DNA from: Microbacterium invictum
GTDB taxonomy: Bacteria > Actinomycetota > Actinomycetes > Actinomycetales > Microbacteriaceae
Direction: 5' to 3'
Length of the DNA stretch: 64,000 nt
NCBI RefSeq assembly: GCF_034421375.1
Contig: NZ_CP139779.1
Coordinates: 2,418,001 to 2,482,000, forward strand
The translations under genes and the position numbers were made by a program. Position 1 is the first letter of the stretch. Each line of letters opens with the position of its first letter. Below are positions 32,037 through 57,257 of the stretch, one piece after another. Below the pieces are notes generated by a model. The model was given only the letters and a program-made list of their open reading frames with translations, searched no databases and was not told where the DNA came from.

Positions 32037-33377
32037 TCACTCTCCTTCCACTCGCAGCACCGAGACGACCCGTTCGACGACGCCGCTGCCGGCCAATCGT
32101 GCCACGGTCTCGCTGAGGTCCTGCTCCTTGGCTTTGTGCGTGCCGATGACCAGGCGCGCGGTGTTCTCAGGGGTCTGCGGCGCCGTGCCGCCGCCGGGGA
32201 CCGGCTCGCCGGCCACGGTCTGCTCGACGGTCGCGATCGAGACCCGGCCCTCGGACAGGATGCCCGCCACCGTGGCGAGCACCCCCGGCTCGTCGTCGAC
32301 CTCGAGGGTGATCTGGTAGCGCGTGGTGACCCGGCCGATGGGCACGATGGCGAGGTTCGCGCGGGTGGACTCCCCCACCCCGACACCGCCGGCGATGTGA
32401 CGCCGGGCGGCCGAGACGACATCGCCGAGGACGGCCGAGGCGGTCTGCACACCACCGGCACCGGCGCCGTAGAACATGAGGTTCCCCGCGGCCTCGGCCT
32501 GCACGAACACGGCGTTGTTGGCCCCGTGGACGCTCGCCAGGGGGTGCGTGCGATCGATGAGAGCGGGGTAGACCCGCACCGAGATCGACTCGGAGTCGTC
32601 GGCATCGCGCAGGCGCTCGCAGACGGCGAGCAGCTTGATCACGAGCCCGGCGTGCCGCGCGGCATCCATCATCGCCTTGTCGATGCCGGTGATGCCCTCG
32701 CGATGCACCGATTCCAGCGGCACCGAGGTGTGGAAGGCCAGGCTCGCCAGGATCGCCGCCTTCTGCGCCGCGTCGTAGCCCTCGACGTCCGCCGTCGGAT
32801 CGGCCTCCGCGTACCCGAGGCGCTGGGCGTCGGCGAGCACATCGGCGAACTCCGCGCCCTCGGTGTCCATGCGGTCGAGGATGTAGTTGGTCGTTCCGTT
32901 GACGATGCCCATGATGCGCTGCACGCGGTCGCCGGCGAGCGAATCGCGCAGCGGACGGATGATCGGGATCGCACCCGCCGCCGCGGCCTCGTAGTACACC
33001 TGCGCGCCGACCTGATCGGCGGCGTCGAAGATCTCAGGGCCGTGGGTGGCGAGCAGCGCCTTGTTGGCGGTGACGACGTCGGCGCCGGAGTTGATCGCCT
33101 GGAGCAGGTAGGTGCGCGCCGGCTCGATACCGCCCATGAGCTCGATCACGATGTCGGCGCCGACGATGAGGCTCTCGGCGTCGGTGGTGAACAGCTCCTT
33201 GGGCAGGTCGGTCTCGCGCGGGGCGTCGAGCTTGCGCACCGCGATGCCGGCGAGCTCGAGGCTCGCGCCGGCACGATCGGCGAGCTCGGCGCTGTGCAGG
33301 CGCAGCAGCGCGGCGACCTGCGAGCCGACGGCGCCGGCTCCCAGGAGCGCGACGCGCAGGCGACGGTAATCAGGCAT
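32037..33377 (-). CDS. hom: homoserine dehydrogenase
   Basis: A 446-residue NAD(P)H-dependent enzyme reducing aspartate semialdehyde to homoserine, the branch point for Thr and Met. The Rossmann start [17 protein letters not shown], the catalytic region [14 protein letters not shown] and [17 protein letters not shown] are present. The C-terminal ~80 residues are an ACT domain ([19 protein letters not shown]), the site of threonine feedback inhibition in this family. The ATG at 33377 overlaps the end of lysA by eight bases. The homoserine supplied here also feeds metX and metY at the right end of the window. Confidence 0.97.
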
Positions 33378-50280: not shown

Positions 50281-51792
50281 ATGCTTCGCCGCACGGCCCT
50301 CGCCGCCACTGCTCTCTTCGCCGCCTCCGCCCTCGTGCTCGCCGGCTGCACCGCCTCCACCGGACCTGGCCCGACGGGCGCGACGGGCGAGCCCGACGCC
50401 GACGCCTCGGTCGCGATCCGGCTGGTGCTCGAGCCCGGAAACCTCGACATCCGCCAGACGACCGGCGCCGCCCTCGACCAGGTGCTCATCGACAACGTCT
50501 ATCAGGGACTGGTATCGCGGACCACCGATCAGGAGATCGTCCCGGCGCTCGCCAGCGACTGGGAGGTTTCGGACGACGGCCTGACCTACACCTTCACGCT
50601 CGAGGAGGGCGTCACTTTCCACGATGGCCAGGAGCTGACCCCGCAGGACGTGGTCTGGTCGCTGCAGACCCGCAAGGACACCCCGGAATGGGCGGATTCC
50701 GCGCGTCTGGCGAACGTGTCGTCGATCACCGCGGACGGGCAGACCGTCACCCTGACGCTCGCGCAGCCCGACTCGAGCCTGCTGTGGAACCTCACCGGCC
50801 GCGCAGGGATCATCCTCAAGGAGGGCGACACCGTCGACTACCAGACGGCGGCCAACGGCACCGGGCCGTTCGTCCTCGAGGAGTGGCAGCAGGGAGCGAG
50901 CATCACCCTCACCCGCAACGACGCCTACTGGGGCGACGCCGCGGGCGTCGGCGAAGTGGTCTTCCAGTACATCGCCGAAGACCAGGCCGCGGTGAACGCC
51001 GCGGCCGCGGGCGAGGTCGACGTGCTCACCGGGTTCGACCCGAACCTCACCGAGCAGATCGAGCAGAGCGGCGACTGGACCGTCGTGCTCGGCACCGCCA
51101 CCGACAAGAGCGTGCTGGCGATGAACAGCACCGCCGCACCCCTCGACGACCAGCGCGTGCGCCAGGCAATCCGTCAGGCGATCGATCACGACGCCATCGT
51201 CGAGGCGGTCGGTGCCGGGCAGACCCTGTACGGCCCCATCCCCGAGCCCGACCCCGGCTACGAGGACCTCAGCGACACGGCGCCGTACGACCCCGAAGCC
51301 GCGCGCGCGCTGCTCGAGGAGGCGGGGGTGGAAGACCTCGAGCTGACCCTCACGATCCCAGCCGACTACGGCACGACCATTCCGCAGATCCTCGTATCAG
51401 ATTTCAACGAGGTCGGCATCACCCTCGAGGTCGACGCGGTCGACTTCGGCGTGTGGGTGAACGACGTATACACGAACAAAGACTACGAGCTCAGCTACGT
51501 GAATCACGCGGAGGCCCGCGACTTCGAGAACTGGGCCAACCCCGACTACTACTTCACGTACGACAACCCCGAGGTGCAGGACCTCTACGAGCAGTCGCTG
51601 CGCGCCACGGACGAGGCGGAGGCCGATGCCCTTCTCGCCGAGGCCGCGCGCATCGTCGCCGAGGATGCCGCGGCGGACTGGCTGTTCAATTGGGCCGGCG
51701 TGAGCGCGGTCGCCGCGGGCATCAACGGAATGCCCGTGGATAGCGTCAACGCCCGCCTGAACCTTGCAGAGCTGACCAAGAGCGACGGGTGA
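50281..51792 (+). CDS. ABC transporter substrate-binding lipoprotein (family 5, peptide/nickel type)
   Basis: A 503-residue solute-binding lipoprotein. The signal peptide (residues 1-22) ends in a lipobox with C23 (LVLAGC), so it is attached to the membrane outer face. Family 5 blocks include VYQGLVSRTTDQEIVPALASDWEVS, DGLTYTFTLEEGVTFHDG and a C-terminal lobe NEVGITLEVDAVDFGVWV. It probably binds di- or oligopeptides; nickel or other ligands are possible. ATG follows AAAGGAAT. It heads a five-gene operon in which every junction is a four-base overlap. Confidence 0.93.
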   Translation: MLRRTALAATALFAASALVLAGCTASTGPGPTGATGEPDADASVAIRLVLEPGNLDIRQTTGAALDQVLIDNVYQGLVSRTTDQEIVPALASDWEVSDDGLTYTFTLEEGVTFHDGQELTPQDVVWSLQTRKDTPEWADSARLANVSSITADGQTVTLTLAQPDSSLLWNLTGRAGIILKEGDTVDYQTAANGTGPFVLEEWQQGASITLTRNDAYWGDAAGVGEVVFQYIAEDQAAVNAAAAGEVDVLTGFDPNLTEQIEQSGDWTVVLGTATDKSVLAMNSTAAPLDDQRVRQAIRQAIDHDAIVEAVGAGQTLYGPIPEPDPGYEDLSDTAPYDPEAARALLEEAGVEDLELTLTIPADYGTTIPQILVSDFNEVGITLEVDAVDFGVWVNDVYTNKDYELSYVNHAEARDFENWANPDYYFTYDNPEVQDLYEQSLRATDEAEADALLAEAARIVAEDAAADWLFNWAGVSAVAAGINGMPVDSVNARLNLAELTKSDG

Positions 51793-52739
51793 TCCGGTAC
51801 GCGCTGACCCGGGGAGCCCTGCTACTGCTGGGGCTGTTCGTGGCCAGCGCGCTCATCTTCCTCACCCTGCGCGTCCTACCCGGCGACGTCGCGCAGCAGA
51901 TCGCCGGCACGAACGGCACCCCCGAGCAGGTCGCGGCGATCCGTGAGAGCCTCGGGCTGAATGCGCCGCTGTGGGCCCAGTACGTCGACTGGATCGGCGG
52001 GGTGTTCCGGGGAGACCTCGGCACCTCGCTCTACACGGGCCTGACGGTGACCGCTGAGCTCGCCGAGAAGGCCCGCGTGACGGTGCCACTCGGCATCCTG
52101 TCTCTCCTGTTCGCCCTCGCCGTCAGCATCCCGCTCGGCGTGCTCTCGGCGCTCCGGCGCGGGCGCGCCGACGGCACCGCGCTGAGCGTCGGGGCGCAGG
52201 CCGTCGCCGCGGTGCCTGTGGTGTGGGCCGGCATGATGCTCGTCGTGGTCTTCGCGGTGTGGCTGGGCTTGCTCCCCGCCCAGGGCTTCCCCCGGGGCGG
52301 CTGGAGCCAGCCGGTCGACGCCCTCCGCGCCCTGATCCTCCCCGCGCTCACGATCGGCATCATCGAAGGGGCGATGCTGCTGCGGTTCGTGCGGAGCGCC
52401 ACCCTCCAGGCGATCGGGCAGGACTACGTCCGCACCGCCGCGGCCAAGGGCCTCACCCGCAACGCCGCCCTGATCCGGCACGGGCTGCCGAACGTCGGGC
52501 TCTCGGTCATCTCGGTGCTCGGCCTCCAGGTGGCCGGCATCGTCGTGGGAGCCGTGATCATCGAGCAGCTGTTCAGCCTGCCCGGGATCGGACGGATGCT
52601 GGTGAGCGACGTCGGCGCTCGGGATCTGCCGATGGTGCAGGGCGAACTGCTGATCCTCACTGGTTTCGTGCTGCTCGTCGGCTTTTTCGTCGACCTCGTC
52701 CACCGCCTCCTCGACCCTCGGCAGCGGGAGGCGGCATGA
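51789..52739 (+). CDS. peptide/nickel-type ABC transporter permease (DppB-like)
   Basis: A 316-residue permease with six membrane helices. The N-terminal LVASALIFLTLRVLPGDVAQQI block, including LPGD, and the coupling loop DYVRTAAAKGLTRNAALIRHGLPN (EAA motif) are diagnostic of the DppB type. GTG at 51789 overlaps the substrate-binding gene stop (GTGA). It pairs with the following DppC-type permease to form the channel. Confidence 0.94.
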   Translation: MIRYALTRGALLLLGLFVASALIFLTLRVLPGDVAQQIAGTNGTPEQVAAIRESLGLNAPLWAQYVDWIGGVFRGDLGTSLYTGLTVTAELAEKARVTVPLGILSLLFALAVSIPLGVLSALRRGRADGTALSVGAQAVAAVPVVWAGMMLVVVFAVWLGLLPAQGFPRGGWSQPVDALRALILPALTIGIIEGAMLLRFVRSATLQAIGQDYVRTAAAKGLTRNAALIRHGLPNVGLSVISVLGLQVAGIVVGAVIIEQLFSLPGIGRMLVSDVGARDLPMVQGELLILTGFVLLVGFFVDLVHRLLDPRQREAA

Positions 52740-53614
52740 GCGCCCTCCGACGACTCTGGGCCCTCTCGACCGGGCGCTTCGGGCTGATCGTCGTCGCCGT
52801 CATCCTCCTCACGGCCGCGGTGTCGCTCGTCTGGACCCCCTTCGACCCGCAGCAGGTCGACATCCCGAACCGCTGGGCGCCGCCCGGGTGGCCGCACGTG
52901 CTCGGCACGGACGGCACGGGCCGCGACATCCTGAGCCTCCTCATCGCCGGCTCGCGGACGACCGTGGTCGTCGCGGTCGGCGCGGGCGTCGTGGCGACCG
53001 TGCTCGGCCTCGCCCTCGCAGCGCTCGGCGCGCTCACCCGCCGGTGGGTACGGGAGACGGTGGCGGTGGCCGTCGACATCCTCATCGCCTTCCCGGTGCT
53101 CCTCATCGCCATGATGATCTCGGCGGTCTGGGGCGGGTCGCTCTGGGTCGTGATCTGGGCCGTGGGCATCGGGTTCGGCGTGAACATCGCCCGCGTCACC
53201 CGCCCCGAGCTCCGCCGCGTTCTGCAGAGCGACTTCGTGCTCGCCGGCCGGGCCTCGGGTCTCACCCCGGCGCAGAACCTCGTCCGCCACCTGCTGCCGA
53301 ACGTCGCGCCGGTCTTCATCGTCCAGCTGTCGTGGGGCATGGCCGTGGCCGTCCTCGCCGAGGCGGGACTGTCGTACCTCGGGTTCGGCGCTCCCCCGAC
53401 CGAGCCGTCGTGGGGGCTGCTGCTGGCGGAGCTTCAGCAGTACCTCACCGTGTATCCCCTCTCGGTGCTGTGGCCGGGACTCGCGATCACCTTCACGGTG
53501 CTCGGGCTGAATCTGCTGGGCGACGGCATCCGCGACGCCACCGACCCCACCCTGTCCCGCCGGGGCGGGTCCGCCCGCCGCGCCCGGACGCACGTGCCGG
53601 AGGTCGTCGCATGA
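52736..53614 (+). CDS. peptide/nickel-type ABC transporter permease (DppC-like)
   Basis: A 292-residue second permease. The N-terminal GTDGTGRDILSLLIAGSRTT is typical of DppC/OppC, the EAA motif is LAGRASGLTPAQNLVRHLLPN, and SYLGFGAPPTEPSWGLLL is near the C terminus. Six membrane helices. ATG at 52736 overlaps the previous stop (ATGA). It is followed without a gap by the first ATPase gene. Confidence 0.94.
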   Translation: MSALRRLWALSTGRFGLIVVAVILLTAAVSLVWTPFDPQQVDIPNRWAPPGWPHVLGTDGTGRDILSLLIAGSRTTVVVAVGAGVVATVLGLALAALGALTRRWVRETVAVAVDILIAFPVLLIAMMISAVWGGSLWVVIWAVGIGFGVNIARVTRPELRRVLQSDFVLAGRASGLTPAQNLVRHLLPNVAPVFIVQLSWGMAVAVLAEAGLSYLGFGAPPTEPSWGLLLAELQQYLTVYPLSVLWPGLAITFTVLGLNLLGDGIRDATDPTLSRRGGSARRARTHVPEVVA

Positions 53615-54402
53615 GCCTGTCGGTGCGCGACCTCGTCGTCGAGATCGACGGCCGACGCGTCGTCGACGGCATCTCGTTCGAGGTTCCCGACGGCGCGCGG
53701 CTGGGACTCATCGGCGAGTCGGGCTCGGGCAAGTCGCTCACCGCGCTGGCGATCCTCGGGCTCCTCCCCGACGGTGCGACCGCGTCGGGAAGTGTGTCGT
53801 GGAACGGCCGCGAGCTCATCGGCCTTCCCGACCGAGAGCTCGCCGAGCTTCGCGGCGACGAGATCGGCATCGTCTTCCAAGAACCCCGCACGGCGCTGAA
53901 CCCGATCCGCACGATCGGGCGCCAGATCGCCGAGTCGGTGCGCATCCACGAGGGTGCGAGCAGGAGGGATGCCGCGACGCGGGCCGTCGCCGAAGCGGCG
54001 CGCGTCGCCCTGCCCGACCCCGACGGGATCGTCAGGCGCTACCCGCACCAGCTCTCCGGCGGGCAGCGCCAGCGGGTCGCGATCGCCATGGCCCTCGCCT
54101 GCCGGCCGCGGCTGCTCATCGCCGACGAGCCCACCACCGCCCTGGACGTGACGATCCAGGCCGAGATCCTCGAGCTCCTCCGCGCCCTCGTCACCGACGA
54201 CGGGATGTCGCTGATCTTCATCACCCACGACCTCGCCGTCTTGGCGCAGGTCGCCACCCACGCCGTCGTCCTCGAAGACGGCCGGATCGTCGAGACCGGC
54301 CCGGTCGCCACGCTCCTGCGCGACCCCGCCTCCCCCGTCACGCGGGGACTGCTCCGCGACGCCACCGCCACCCTGTGGCGCCCCGAGGGGAGGACGCCGT
54401 GA
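53611..54402 (+). CDS. peptide ABC transporter ATPase (DppD-like)
   Basis: A 263-residue ATPase with Walker [16 protein letters not shown], signature [15 protein letters not shown] and Walker [14 protein letters not shown]. Its C-terminal region is short; the Cys-containing oligopeptide ABC domain that extends most OppD/DppD proteins to about 330 residues is not present. ATG at 53611 overlaps the permease stop (ATGA), and the end overlaps the next ATPase by four bases. Confidence 0.94.
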
Positions 54403-55223
54403 GCGACATCCTCGTGAGCGCCCGCCGCCTCACCCGCCGGCACGCGCTGCCGAAGAAGACCCTCTTCCAGCGGCGCGGGTACACAACCGCGCTCGAGGAC
54501 GCCGACATCGATGTCCGAGAGGGCAGCACCCTCGGCATCATCGGCGAGTCGGGTTCGGGCAAGTCCACCCTGGTGAGACTTCTTCTCGGGCTCGATGCCC
54601 CCACCTCCGGCACCGTCGAGGTCGACGGTCGCGCCGTCGACGCCACCGCCTCGGCGCGCTCGCTGCACTGGCTCCGGCGCCTGACGGGCGTGGTGTTCCA
54701 GGACCCCTACGCCTCGCTCGATCCGCGGATGAGCGTCGGGCGCATCGTCGGAGAGCCCCTCTGGGCCCTGGGCATCGAGGGCGACCGGCGGGCGAGGGTG
54801 CGGGAGGTGCTCGCGCAGGTCGGACTCGAGGCCGAGATGACCGAGCGCTTCCCTCACGAGTTCTCGGGCGGCCAGCGGCAGCGGATCGCCCTGGCCCGCG
54901 CGCTCGTGCACCGGCCGCGCCTGCTCGTCGGCGATGAGCCGCTCTCGGCGCTCGATGTCACCGTCCGAGCGCAGATCCTCGCTCTGCTCGCCGACCTCCG
55001 ACGTCAGGAAGACCTCACCCTCGTGATGGTCTCGCACGACATCGGCGTCGTCCAGAGCATCTGCGACGAGGTGGTGGTGATGAAAGACGGCCGCATCGTC
55101 GAGGAGGGGCCGACCGAGAAAGTGCTCCAGCAGCCGCAGGTGGCCTACACCCGGCGGCTGCTGGCCTCCGTGCCCACGATCGATCCGCCCGGCGACCGCC
55201 CCGGCGTCGGAGGGGGGCGTTAG
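54399..55223 (+). CDS. peptide ABC transporter ATPase (DppF-like)
   Basis: A 274-residue ATPase with Walker [17 protein letters not shown], signature [15 protein letters not shown] and Walker [15 protein letters not shown]. The N terminus [21 protein letters not shown] is typical of the F-type subunit. The GTG overlaps the previous stop (GTGA). Its stop TAG is one base before the GTG start of the metalloprotease gene, and its GGAGGGGG tail serves as that gene's ribosome site. Confidence 0.94.
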
Positions 55224-55224
55224 C

Positions 55225-56286
55225 GTGGTCGCCATGCGCGCGATCATCCCCCCCTATCTCCTTGCCCGTATCGCCTCGGTCGGTGAACCCGCCTTCGCCC
55301 ACGCGGCCGCCGCGGCGCGCGCCACCCTCCAGGCCACCCCGCCCTACCGCATCGCCCGCCGTCGCCTGCGTCTGTCGATCGACGAAGACGGCACGATCAC
55401 CGCCGAGACCGCCCCCGCGCCAGACCGCACGATCTCCGATGCCGGCGGTCGCGAGGTGCTGCCCGGCCGGCGGGTACGCGGCGAAGACGACCCCGCCACC
55501 GGCGACGCCGCCGTCGACGAAGCCTTCGACGGCCTCGGCATCACCTTCGACGCGTTCTGGGACGCCTTCGCGCGCAACAGCATCGACGGCGCCGGAGCAC
55601 CGCTCCTGGCCACGGTGCACTACGGACGCGACTACGACAACGCGTTCTGGAACGGCGAGCGCATGGTCTTCGGCGACGGCGACGGCGAGGTGTTCACGGG
55701 ATTCACCGGATCGCTCACCGTCATCGCCCACGAGCTCGCTCACGGGGTCATCGAGGCGGCGGGGGGCCTGGAGTACCAGGACCAGTCGGGAGCGCTGAAC
55801 GAATCGATCGCCGACGTGTTCGGCGTGCTCGTCGAGCAGCAGCACTTCGGACAGACCGCCGACGAGGCCAGCTGGCTCGTCGGCGAGGGGATCTTCACTG
55901 ACGCCGTGCAGGGGCGGGCCCTCCGATCGCTCGCGGCGCCGGGGACGGCGTATGACGACGACATCCTCGGCCGCGACCCGCAGCCGGGGCACATGGATGA
56001 CTTCGTCGTGACCGACGACGACAACGGCGGCGTCCACATAAACTCCGGCATCCCCAATCGCGCGTTCCACCTGTGCGCCACCGCCCTCGGCGGCTACGCC
56101 TGGGAACGCGCGGGACGGGTCTGGTATCTCACCCTGACGTCGGGCACGCTCTCCCCCACCGCGGACTTCTCGACGTTCGCGGCCGCCACGGTCGCCGTCG
56201 CCCGGGCGGAGTACGGTGAATCATCCGAAGAAGCAGCGGCCGTGCGCGCCGCCTGGGCGGGCGTCGGGGTCGACCTCGCCGGGTAA
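55225..56286 (+). CDS. protealysin-like M4 family metalloprotease
   Basis: A 353-residue zinc metalloprotease of the thermolysin family. The zinc motif is HELAH at 169-173, with the third ligand E193 in [12 protein letters not shown] and the catalytic His in [12 protein letters not shown]. There is no signal peptide; instead the N terminus has [14 protein letters not shown], the PPYLL motif of protealysin-type propeptides, so the protein is probably cytosolic and self-processing. GTG at 55225 is chosen because GGAGGGGG lies seven bases before it. The one-base gap from the ABC operon suggests cotranscription, and the next gene is its likely inhibitor. Confidence 0.9.
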
Positions 56287-56321
56287 GGCGTCGCGGCCCC
56301 GAGAGAGCGACGTGGACGGGG

Positions 56322-56642
56322 ATGAGCGATCAGACGGATGACGGCGACGGCACGGACGCGGTGGTGGTGATCCTGGTGGAGCGCACCGGGGGTGTCACCG
56401 GGATCCCCCGGCGATGGCGCGCGGAGGCCGAGGGCGACGACGCGTCATCCTGGTTGCCGCTCATCGACGCCTGCCCCTGGGACGGGTCCTCTCGCCCAGG
56501 ACGCGGCGCAGACCGGTTCCGCTGGCGGGTGCACGCGAGGTGGCACGGCGCCGACCGCGAGGCCGAGTTCGGCGACGCCGACCTGGAAGGACCGTGGCAG
56601 ACCCTCGTCGAGCGCGTGCGCGAGCACGGCCGGCCGGGCTGA
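56322..56642 (+). CDS. emfourin-type inhibitor of M4 metalloprotease
   Basis: A 106-residue acidic protein 35 bases downstream of the protealysin-like gene. Its core VVVILVERTGGVTGIPRRWR matches the signature of emfourin, the protealysin inhibitor of Serratia (a V-x-R-S/T-G-G-x-x-G-I/I-x-R pattern). Gene order protease-inhibitor is the same as in Serratia. The N-terminal ~12 residues are Asp-rich and probably flexible. It would hold the cytosolic protease in check until needed. Start ATG 56322. It converges on the acetyltransferase with no gap. Confidence 0.85.
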   Translation: MSDQTDDGDGTDAVVVILVERTGGVTGIPRRWRAEAEGDDASSWLPLIDACPWDGSSRPGRGADRFRWRVHARWHGADREAEFGDADLEGPWQTLVERVREHGRPG

Positions 56643-57257
56643 TCAGCGCCCGAAGAGCGCGCGGCGCTTCTTCTGAGGTTTCAGCGACTTCTGCAGGTAC
56701 ACCGTTCCGAGCCACCGGCCGAACTTGAAGCCGACCCGGCCCATGCGCCCGACCTCTTCGAAGCCGAGCTTCTCGTGCAGCGCGATGGACGCCTCGGCGC
56801 CCTTGTCGCTGATCACCGCCACCATCTCGCGGATGCCCGCCTGCTCGCACGCGGCGATCAGCGCCTCCAGCAGCGCCCGCCCGAGCCCTTTCCCCGTCGC
56901 GGCCTGCCCGAGGTAGATGGAGTTCTCCACCGAGTACCGGTAGGCCGACTTGCTCGACATCGGCTGCACGTAGGCGTAGCCGAGGATCTGACCCGACGGC
57001 GACTGGGCCACGAGGAACGGCAGGCCGAGCTTGTGCAGGTGTGCGACCTTGTCGCGCCACTGCGCGACCGACCACTTCTTCTCGTCGAAGGTGACCACGG
57101 AGTTGGTGACGTAGTAGTTGTAGATCTCCCGGATGTCGGGGATGTCGGCGTCGGCGACCGGGCGGATCTCGAACGAGAACGGGCGCTCCGGCTCGGGACG
57201 GCGGCGAAGATGACGGGGCACCCGGCGCCTCGCCGTTTCGTACTCCTCCTCCAGCAT
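56643..57257 (-). CDS. GNAT family N-acetyltransferase
   Basis: A 204-residue acetyl-CoA-dependent acetyltransferase. The pattern IREIYNYYVTNSVVTFDE, VENSIYLGQAATGKGLGRALLEAL (acetyl-CoA loop) and ALHEKLGFEEVGRMGRVGFKFGRW is that of the phosphinothricin/methionine sulfone acetyltransferase (Pat/MddA) group. The substrate, an amino-acid analogue or amine, is unknown. An extra N-terminal basic segment of ~28 residues precedes the domain. It begins 9 bases after the ung stop and is probably cotranscribed with ung. Confidence 0.88.
   Translation of the reverse strand: MLEEEYETARRRVPRHLRRRPEPERPFSFEIRPVADADIPDIREIYNYYVTNSVVTFDEKKWSVAQWRDKVAHLHKLGLPFLVAQSPSGQILGYAYVQPMSSKSAYRYSVENSIYLGQAATGKGLGRALLEALIAACEQAGIREMVAVISDKGAEASIALHEKLGFEEVGRMGRVGFKFGRWLGTVYLQKSLKPQKKRRALFGR

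Follow-up and report, generated by a model that had tools for sequence, protein, structure and literature searches.

Gene content of the locus

The stretch of DNA analysed here, 64,000 nucleotides of the Microbacterium invictum genome (contig NZ_CP139779.1; hereafter 'the window', with coordinates counted from its first letter), carries on its forward strand a pair of genes lying between an ABC importer and a convergent GNAT acetyltransferase gene. The first gene of the pair encodes a protealysin-like M4 metalloprotease (55234..56286; 350 amino acids from ATG 55234) and the second an emfourin-like M4 inhibitor (56322..56642; 106 amino acids). Upstream on the same strand, Pfam matches identify a family 5 solute-binding protein (SBP_bac_5; 50281..51792), two permeases (BPD_transp_1; 51789..52739 and 52736..53614), and two ATPases (ABC_tran; 53611..54402, with the start chosen by eye, and 54399..55223, whose last bases carry the putative promoter described below). 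Thus, the five-gene importer at 50281-55223 that had been recognised from the sequence alone is borne out. The GNAT gene, also assigned with Pfam, occupies 56643..57257 on the reverse strand; its product's best NCBIfam match, arsinothricin acetyltransferase ArsN1 family B, scores 133 bits, under the cut-off of 210.

The protease matches both M4 domain models (Peptidase_M4, 90.8 bits; M4_C, 180.3 bits), and the M4 catalytic and helical domains, the zinc ligands of HExxH (here HELAH), and the downstream glutamate are all present. Residues H166, E167, H170, and E190 (numbering from ATG 55234) are invariant in the 30 genus sequences aligned. Its best PDB match (374 bits over residues 4-349, vs 180 bits for thermolysin) is 2vqx, an entry titled METALLOPROTEINASE, which we take to be the protealysin precursor. 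Judged by these matches, the protease is nearer to protealysin than to thermolysin, propeptide included. A PPYLL motif stands at the propeptide start (55249..55263), corresponding to the PPL motif reported as a feature of protealysin-like precursors (PMC6778150), but the protealysin propeptide model (PF16485) scores 14.4 bits, under its cut-off of 28.1, and at E 0.1 it matches five of 30 genus protease sequences. No hydrophobic signal sequence is apparent by eye at the N-terminus. Hence, the earlier description of an M4 protease with HELAH, an N-terminal PPYLL, and no signal peptide holds. An AlphaFold prediction for the protease was of low confidence (pLDDT 69.4) and was set aside.

The 106-residue protein, which begins 35 bp past the protease stop codon, had been assigned to the emfourin family by its pattern; Pfam agrees, albeit by a narrow pass (PF20242, 28.1 bits vs a cut-off of 27), and at E 0.01 the same model matches 38 of the 39 genus emfourin sequences scanned. 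Searches with this protein returned nothing relevant among PDB sequences and no Foldseek match at 0.001 or better.

The protease was found in 105 of 119 genus genomes, that of M. invictum included. Besides the window, 105 genus loci were retrieved (100 at first, then five more, L169-L173); every count leaves out five second M4 matches of lower significance (E 2.6e-28 to 2.6e-4). Emfourin lies directly behind the protease in all 100 regions retrieved first, the spacing ranging from -56 to +34 bp (measured from the furthest-upstream emfourin start, with a limit of -60 set in the script), and in two of the five later ones (tblastn). The conserved order argues that the protealysin-like protease and emfourin form a real pair, their order being more than chance. 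Behind three genus proteases (L170, L171, and L173; one is a second copy), tblastn detected no emfourin; two of the three (L170 and L171) nonetheless have strong PafBC-type sites.

The arrangement resembles the protealysin-emfourin operon of Serratia proteamaculans in having an M4 protease with a PPL-type propeptide start and an inhibitor gene directly behind it, and in neither system is a signal peptide seen. It differs from that operon in an emfourin that lies near the family cut-off and in a PafBC-type promoter; to our knowledge, PafBC is not used in Serratia.

A predicted PafBC-type promoter at the protease start

Motif matching places two promoter elements on the forward strand directly ahead of the protease gene: a PafBC-type -26 element, GTCGGAG (55206..55212), within the 3' end of the ATPase 2 gene, and a -10 element, TAGCGT (55221..55226), whose first three bases are the stop codon of that gene. 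The resulting GTCGGAG-N8-TAGCGT (55206-55226) stands seven bases ahead of ATG 55234. It keeps the core of the published consensus for PafBC-dependent P1/RecA-NDp promoters, given as tTGTCRgtg-8 nt-TannnT (PMC5656591), while the leading tT is missing and A replaces t at one position. The same report notes that the P1 motif has also been ascribed to ClgR (PMC5656591).

The sequence-only reading had started the protease at GTG 55225, one base past the last importer gene, with the 3' end of that gene acting as ribosome site. This is probably wrong, since GTG 55225 overlaps the -10 element and ATG 55234 is the start codon that keeps a fixed place behind the -10 element conserved across the genus; the bases in question would serve as a promoter instead. 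The protease mRNA is probably leaderless, beginning at about 55234. Overlap of the promoter with the upstream gene recurs in the genus: the ATPase stop codon falls inside the -10 element in seven of 62 measured regions besides the window, and the -26 element begins inside the ATPase gene in 10 of the 62. A parallel is provided by Rv1955 of Mycobacterium tuberculosis, for which a RecA-NDp motif within the annotated gene, a start mapped further downstream, and increased expression after mitomycin C have been reported (PMC2897130). A scan of 54800-57000 for a sigma-70 consensus and for terminators found neither.

By the scoring matrix described below, the protease site is the second best in the 64-kb window. 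The best, at 33151, lies antisense within an open reading frame that by eye encodes a homoserine dehydrogenase, and was taken as chance.

PafBC and its predicted targets in the genome

The pattern GTCGGNG-N8-TANNNT-N6-7-RTG occurs at 30 sites in the M. invictum genome, the protease site among them, vs one for the reversed pattern; the looser TGTCRGNG-N8-TANNNT occurs at 37 sites vs two reversed. Half of the 30 sites lie ahead of repair or replication genes, encoding RecF, HolA, a RecQ-like helicase, RadA, SbcD, DnaX, Mfd, an AlkZ-like glycosylase, a UvrD-like helicase, RecG, LigA, UvrA, UvrB, DnaE, and exonuclease III; several of the genes behind the 30 sites were scanned as fragments ending at the edge of the locus. 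The other 15 sites precede genes not counted in these classes (e.g. those for SpoIIM, an epoxide hydrolase, and an alpha/beta hydrolase). The recA gene has a PafBC-type site upstream and is not leaderless. Leaderless sites stand ahead of the core replication genes dnaE, dnaX, and holA and of ligA as well, a set wider than repair.

The regulator itself is encoded in the genome: a pair of WYL-domain proteins (genome positions 2090893-2092079) matches the solved PafBC structure 6sj9 and corresponds to PafB and PafC. PafB is present in 119 of 119 genus genomes; PafC was looked at in M. invictum alone. A search for Pup ligase/Dop found it in none of the 119 genus genomes and detected the positive control, Corynebacterium glutamicum. 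The predicted regulon thus resembles that of mycobacteria (PafBC/RecA-NDp) in motif, spacing, the PafB-PafC pair, and the DNA repair genes behind the motif, and differs from it in the missing Pup ligase and in counting a protease/inhibitor pair among its members. By eye, the surroundings of pafB-pafC in M. invictum comprise an FKBP-type isomerase gene, tatC, and a helicase gene, with no proteasome gene recognised among them.

Conservation of the promoter

To score sites across genomes, we used a matrix built from the 37 pattern-matched genome sites with the protease site excluded; because those sites were chosen by pattern, the fixed letters of the matrix are imposed. With both strands of the whole region scored (mostly 13 kb), the protease site ranks first in 79 of 100 genus regions and among the top three in 94. 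First ranks were obtained in 55 of 65 regions with the importer upstream and in 24 of 35 without it. One hundred column-permuted matrices gave, per 100 regions, a mean of 0.6 first ranks and a maximum of 10.

High scores are confined largely to the protease. A best score of at least 10 near the gene start was found for 89 of 100 proteases and one of 100 emfourin genes; for the importer, the counts were 0/64 each for the binding protein, permease 1, and permease 2, 0/65 for ATPase 1, and 1/65 for ATPase 2, and for other neighbours 1/60 (GNAT), 2/61 (AhpD), 0/56 (TyrP), 3/19 (SDR), and 3/18 (MetY). The SDR and MetY starts reached in these last cases (three of 19 and three of 18 in the genus regions) carry PafBC-type sites scoring at least 14.

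Independently of the matrix, 92 of the 100 genus regions (62/65 with the importer, 30/35 without) have GTC-N12-TANNNT-N6-8-ATG where the protease starts, and eight do not; elsewhere in those regions the same architecture occurs at 19 sites. Fifty-one of the 92 starts have the stricter GTCRGNG form. As background, GTCRG precedes any ATG by 26-32 bases in 3.0% of cases (735/24480).

Of 299 Microbacteriaceae genomes searched, 141 carry the protease, and these represent 41 of 85 genera. Outside the genus, we examined 64 of the 136 family matches, covering all 40 other genera; the protease site ranks first at 40 of these 64 loci and among the top three at 49. At the fixed distance, GTCRG occurs in one or more loci from 27 of the 40 genera and is missing from the other 13, some of which still rank first by the matrix. 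The fixed-distance rule, satisfied by 44 of the 64 loci, takes in low-scoring, doubtful loci (L332, L343, L349, and L360), which makes the rank by matrix the more reliable measure. In Frigoribacterium and at some other loci (L232, L234, L235, L237, L244, L315, L316, and L320), the -26 element is intact and the -10 element departs from TANNNT, a combination that would fit a strongly activator-dependent promoter.

A sample of the phylum yielded the protease at E 1e-50 in 35 of 396 genomes. Among 37 loci from other clades (Streptomyces-like, Actinomadura-like, and others), the site ranks first in only four, including two of the same order, and such regulation is therefore not a general trait of protealysins. 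As far as these predicted sites indicate, the promoter is a trait of the Microbacteriaceae branch rather than of protealysins at large, and it is the pair's own, travelling with it independently of the importer.

The importer as a neighbour

The order of importer, protease, and inhibitor had been read as one seven-gene unit, possibly for the uptake and processing of peptides. The evidence favours the pair within that unit but not the functional unit with the importer, which as one operon serving these purposes is highly improbable. In its favour, importer and protease share a strand, only 10 bp separate the ATPase 2 stop codon from ATG 55234, no terminator was found, and the importer lies upstream of the pair in 65 of 100 genus regions. 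It is not so placed in the other 35 (for two of which, L101 and L117, the upstream sequence covered was limited to about 3 and 0.8 kb), and none of the 64 other-genus loci has an importer match in the 0.5-2 kb covered upstream; the seven-gene order is accordingly kept in part of the genus and at none of those loci. On a tree of 131 proteases (FastTree), adjacency amounts to one change, with a support of 97 for that side; one gain is the simplest reading with the outgroup used, although counting changes is no proof of a gain as opposed to a loss. Between ATPase 2 and the protease ATG lie 4 to 1934 bp (median 55; 62 genus regions measured). Moreover, the surrounding genes in the genus regions are kept too, on both strands, so that adjacency alone is no argument for an operon and may be background synteny.

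Importers also occur without the pair. Of 119 genomes, 117 have a match to the importer binding protein at E 1e-60 or better, among them 13 of the 14 that gave no protease hit. We inspected eight regions in which an importer has no adjacent pair (in three genomes the pair is elsewhere, in five there is none): the GNAT gene follows ATPase 2 within 41 bp in six, lies about 0.5 kb past it in one (G054), and was not seen in the last (G090). The five-gene set directly upstream of the pair resembles family 5 ABC import operons of the dipeptide, nickel, and glutathione types; with its binding protein reaching no NCBIfam cut-off, peptides are a putative substrate. Together with the promoter at the protease start, these observations suggest that the link to the importer is real and looks incidental, the importer being a neighbour that we judge to lie outside the unit. 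In M. invictum, with its 10-bp gap and no terminator found, transcripts possibly read through from the importer into the pair.

A proposed role in the DNA-damage response

We consider it probable that the protease and emfourin genes form a two-gene PafBC-controlled DNA-damage unit, supplying an inhibited cytosolic protease that serves the damage response, with the importer a mere neighbour. PafBC is reported to be activated by single-stranded DNA and to adapt housekeeping RNA polymerase to its promoters (PMC11804915). Upon DNA damage, single-stranded DNA would thus activate PafBC, and PafBC would adapt the polymerase to the 55206-55226 promoter. The transcript, leaderless and starting near 55234, would then supply the cytosol with a protealysin zymogen and the emfourin inhibitor, making an inhibited protease available during or after the damage response. 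RecA and FtsZ, known substrates of protealysin in Serratia, would be the first candidate substrates. Damage induction, the leaderless start, inhibition, the substrates, and the purpose of the pair are what we infer here from the sequence comparisons.

Two other explanations grant the promoter or the inhibitor a different meaning. DNA damage often triggers toxin-immunity and lysis systems, and the protease might accordingly harm its own cell or neighbouring cells, with emfourin as the immunity protein and release upon damage. For Serratia protealysin, a part in interbacterial competition has been proposed (PMC9505478), and the enzyme is reported to be stored in precursor form and to become active after lysis (PMC6778150). 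However, no secretion signal is apparent by eye and no delivery or lysis gene was recognised among the neighbouring genes read, and presence in 105 of 119 genus genomes would suit a housekeeping function better than a mobile weapon; we regard this explanation as unlikely. The motif might instead serve these bacteria as a leaderless housekeeping promoter of general use, devoid of PafBC specificity, as the sites ahead of genes with no repair link (SpoIIM, the two hydrolases) would allow. This has little probability in view of the half of the 30 sites that serve repair or replication genes, the site upstream of recA, the several other genera that keep the -26 part while the -10 part departs from TANNNT, and the protease locus itself, where no sigma-70 consensus was found.

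The DNA-damage-type promoter, which follows the pair across genera and differing gene neighbourhoods, points to a definite condition in which the cellular role of protealysin and emfourin could be sought, and connects to the reported cutting of RecA and FtsZ by protealysin. A second issue is how actinobacteria with PafBC and without Pup ligase dispose of their damage-response proteins. In mycobacteria, the Pup-proteasome is reported to remove RecA and other regulon members on the return to normal (PMC8223512), and no Pup ligase was found in Microbacterium. We therefore advance, as a tentative and rather doubtful extension, that in Microbacteriaceae a PafBC-induced, emfourin-held protealysin replaced the Pup-proteasome, either clearing RecA and other response proteins or cutting FtsZ to hold division during recovery. 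Within the literature searched, mostly freely readable papers, none linked PafBC with protealysin or with emfourin, and only one (PMC9505478) brought protealysin together with 'DNA damage'. Elsewhere in the M. invictum genome, between divergent open reading frames lacking a Pfam match at 1e-5, two PafBC-type sites stand back to back (443815-443872).
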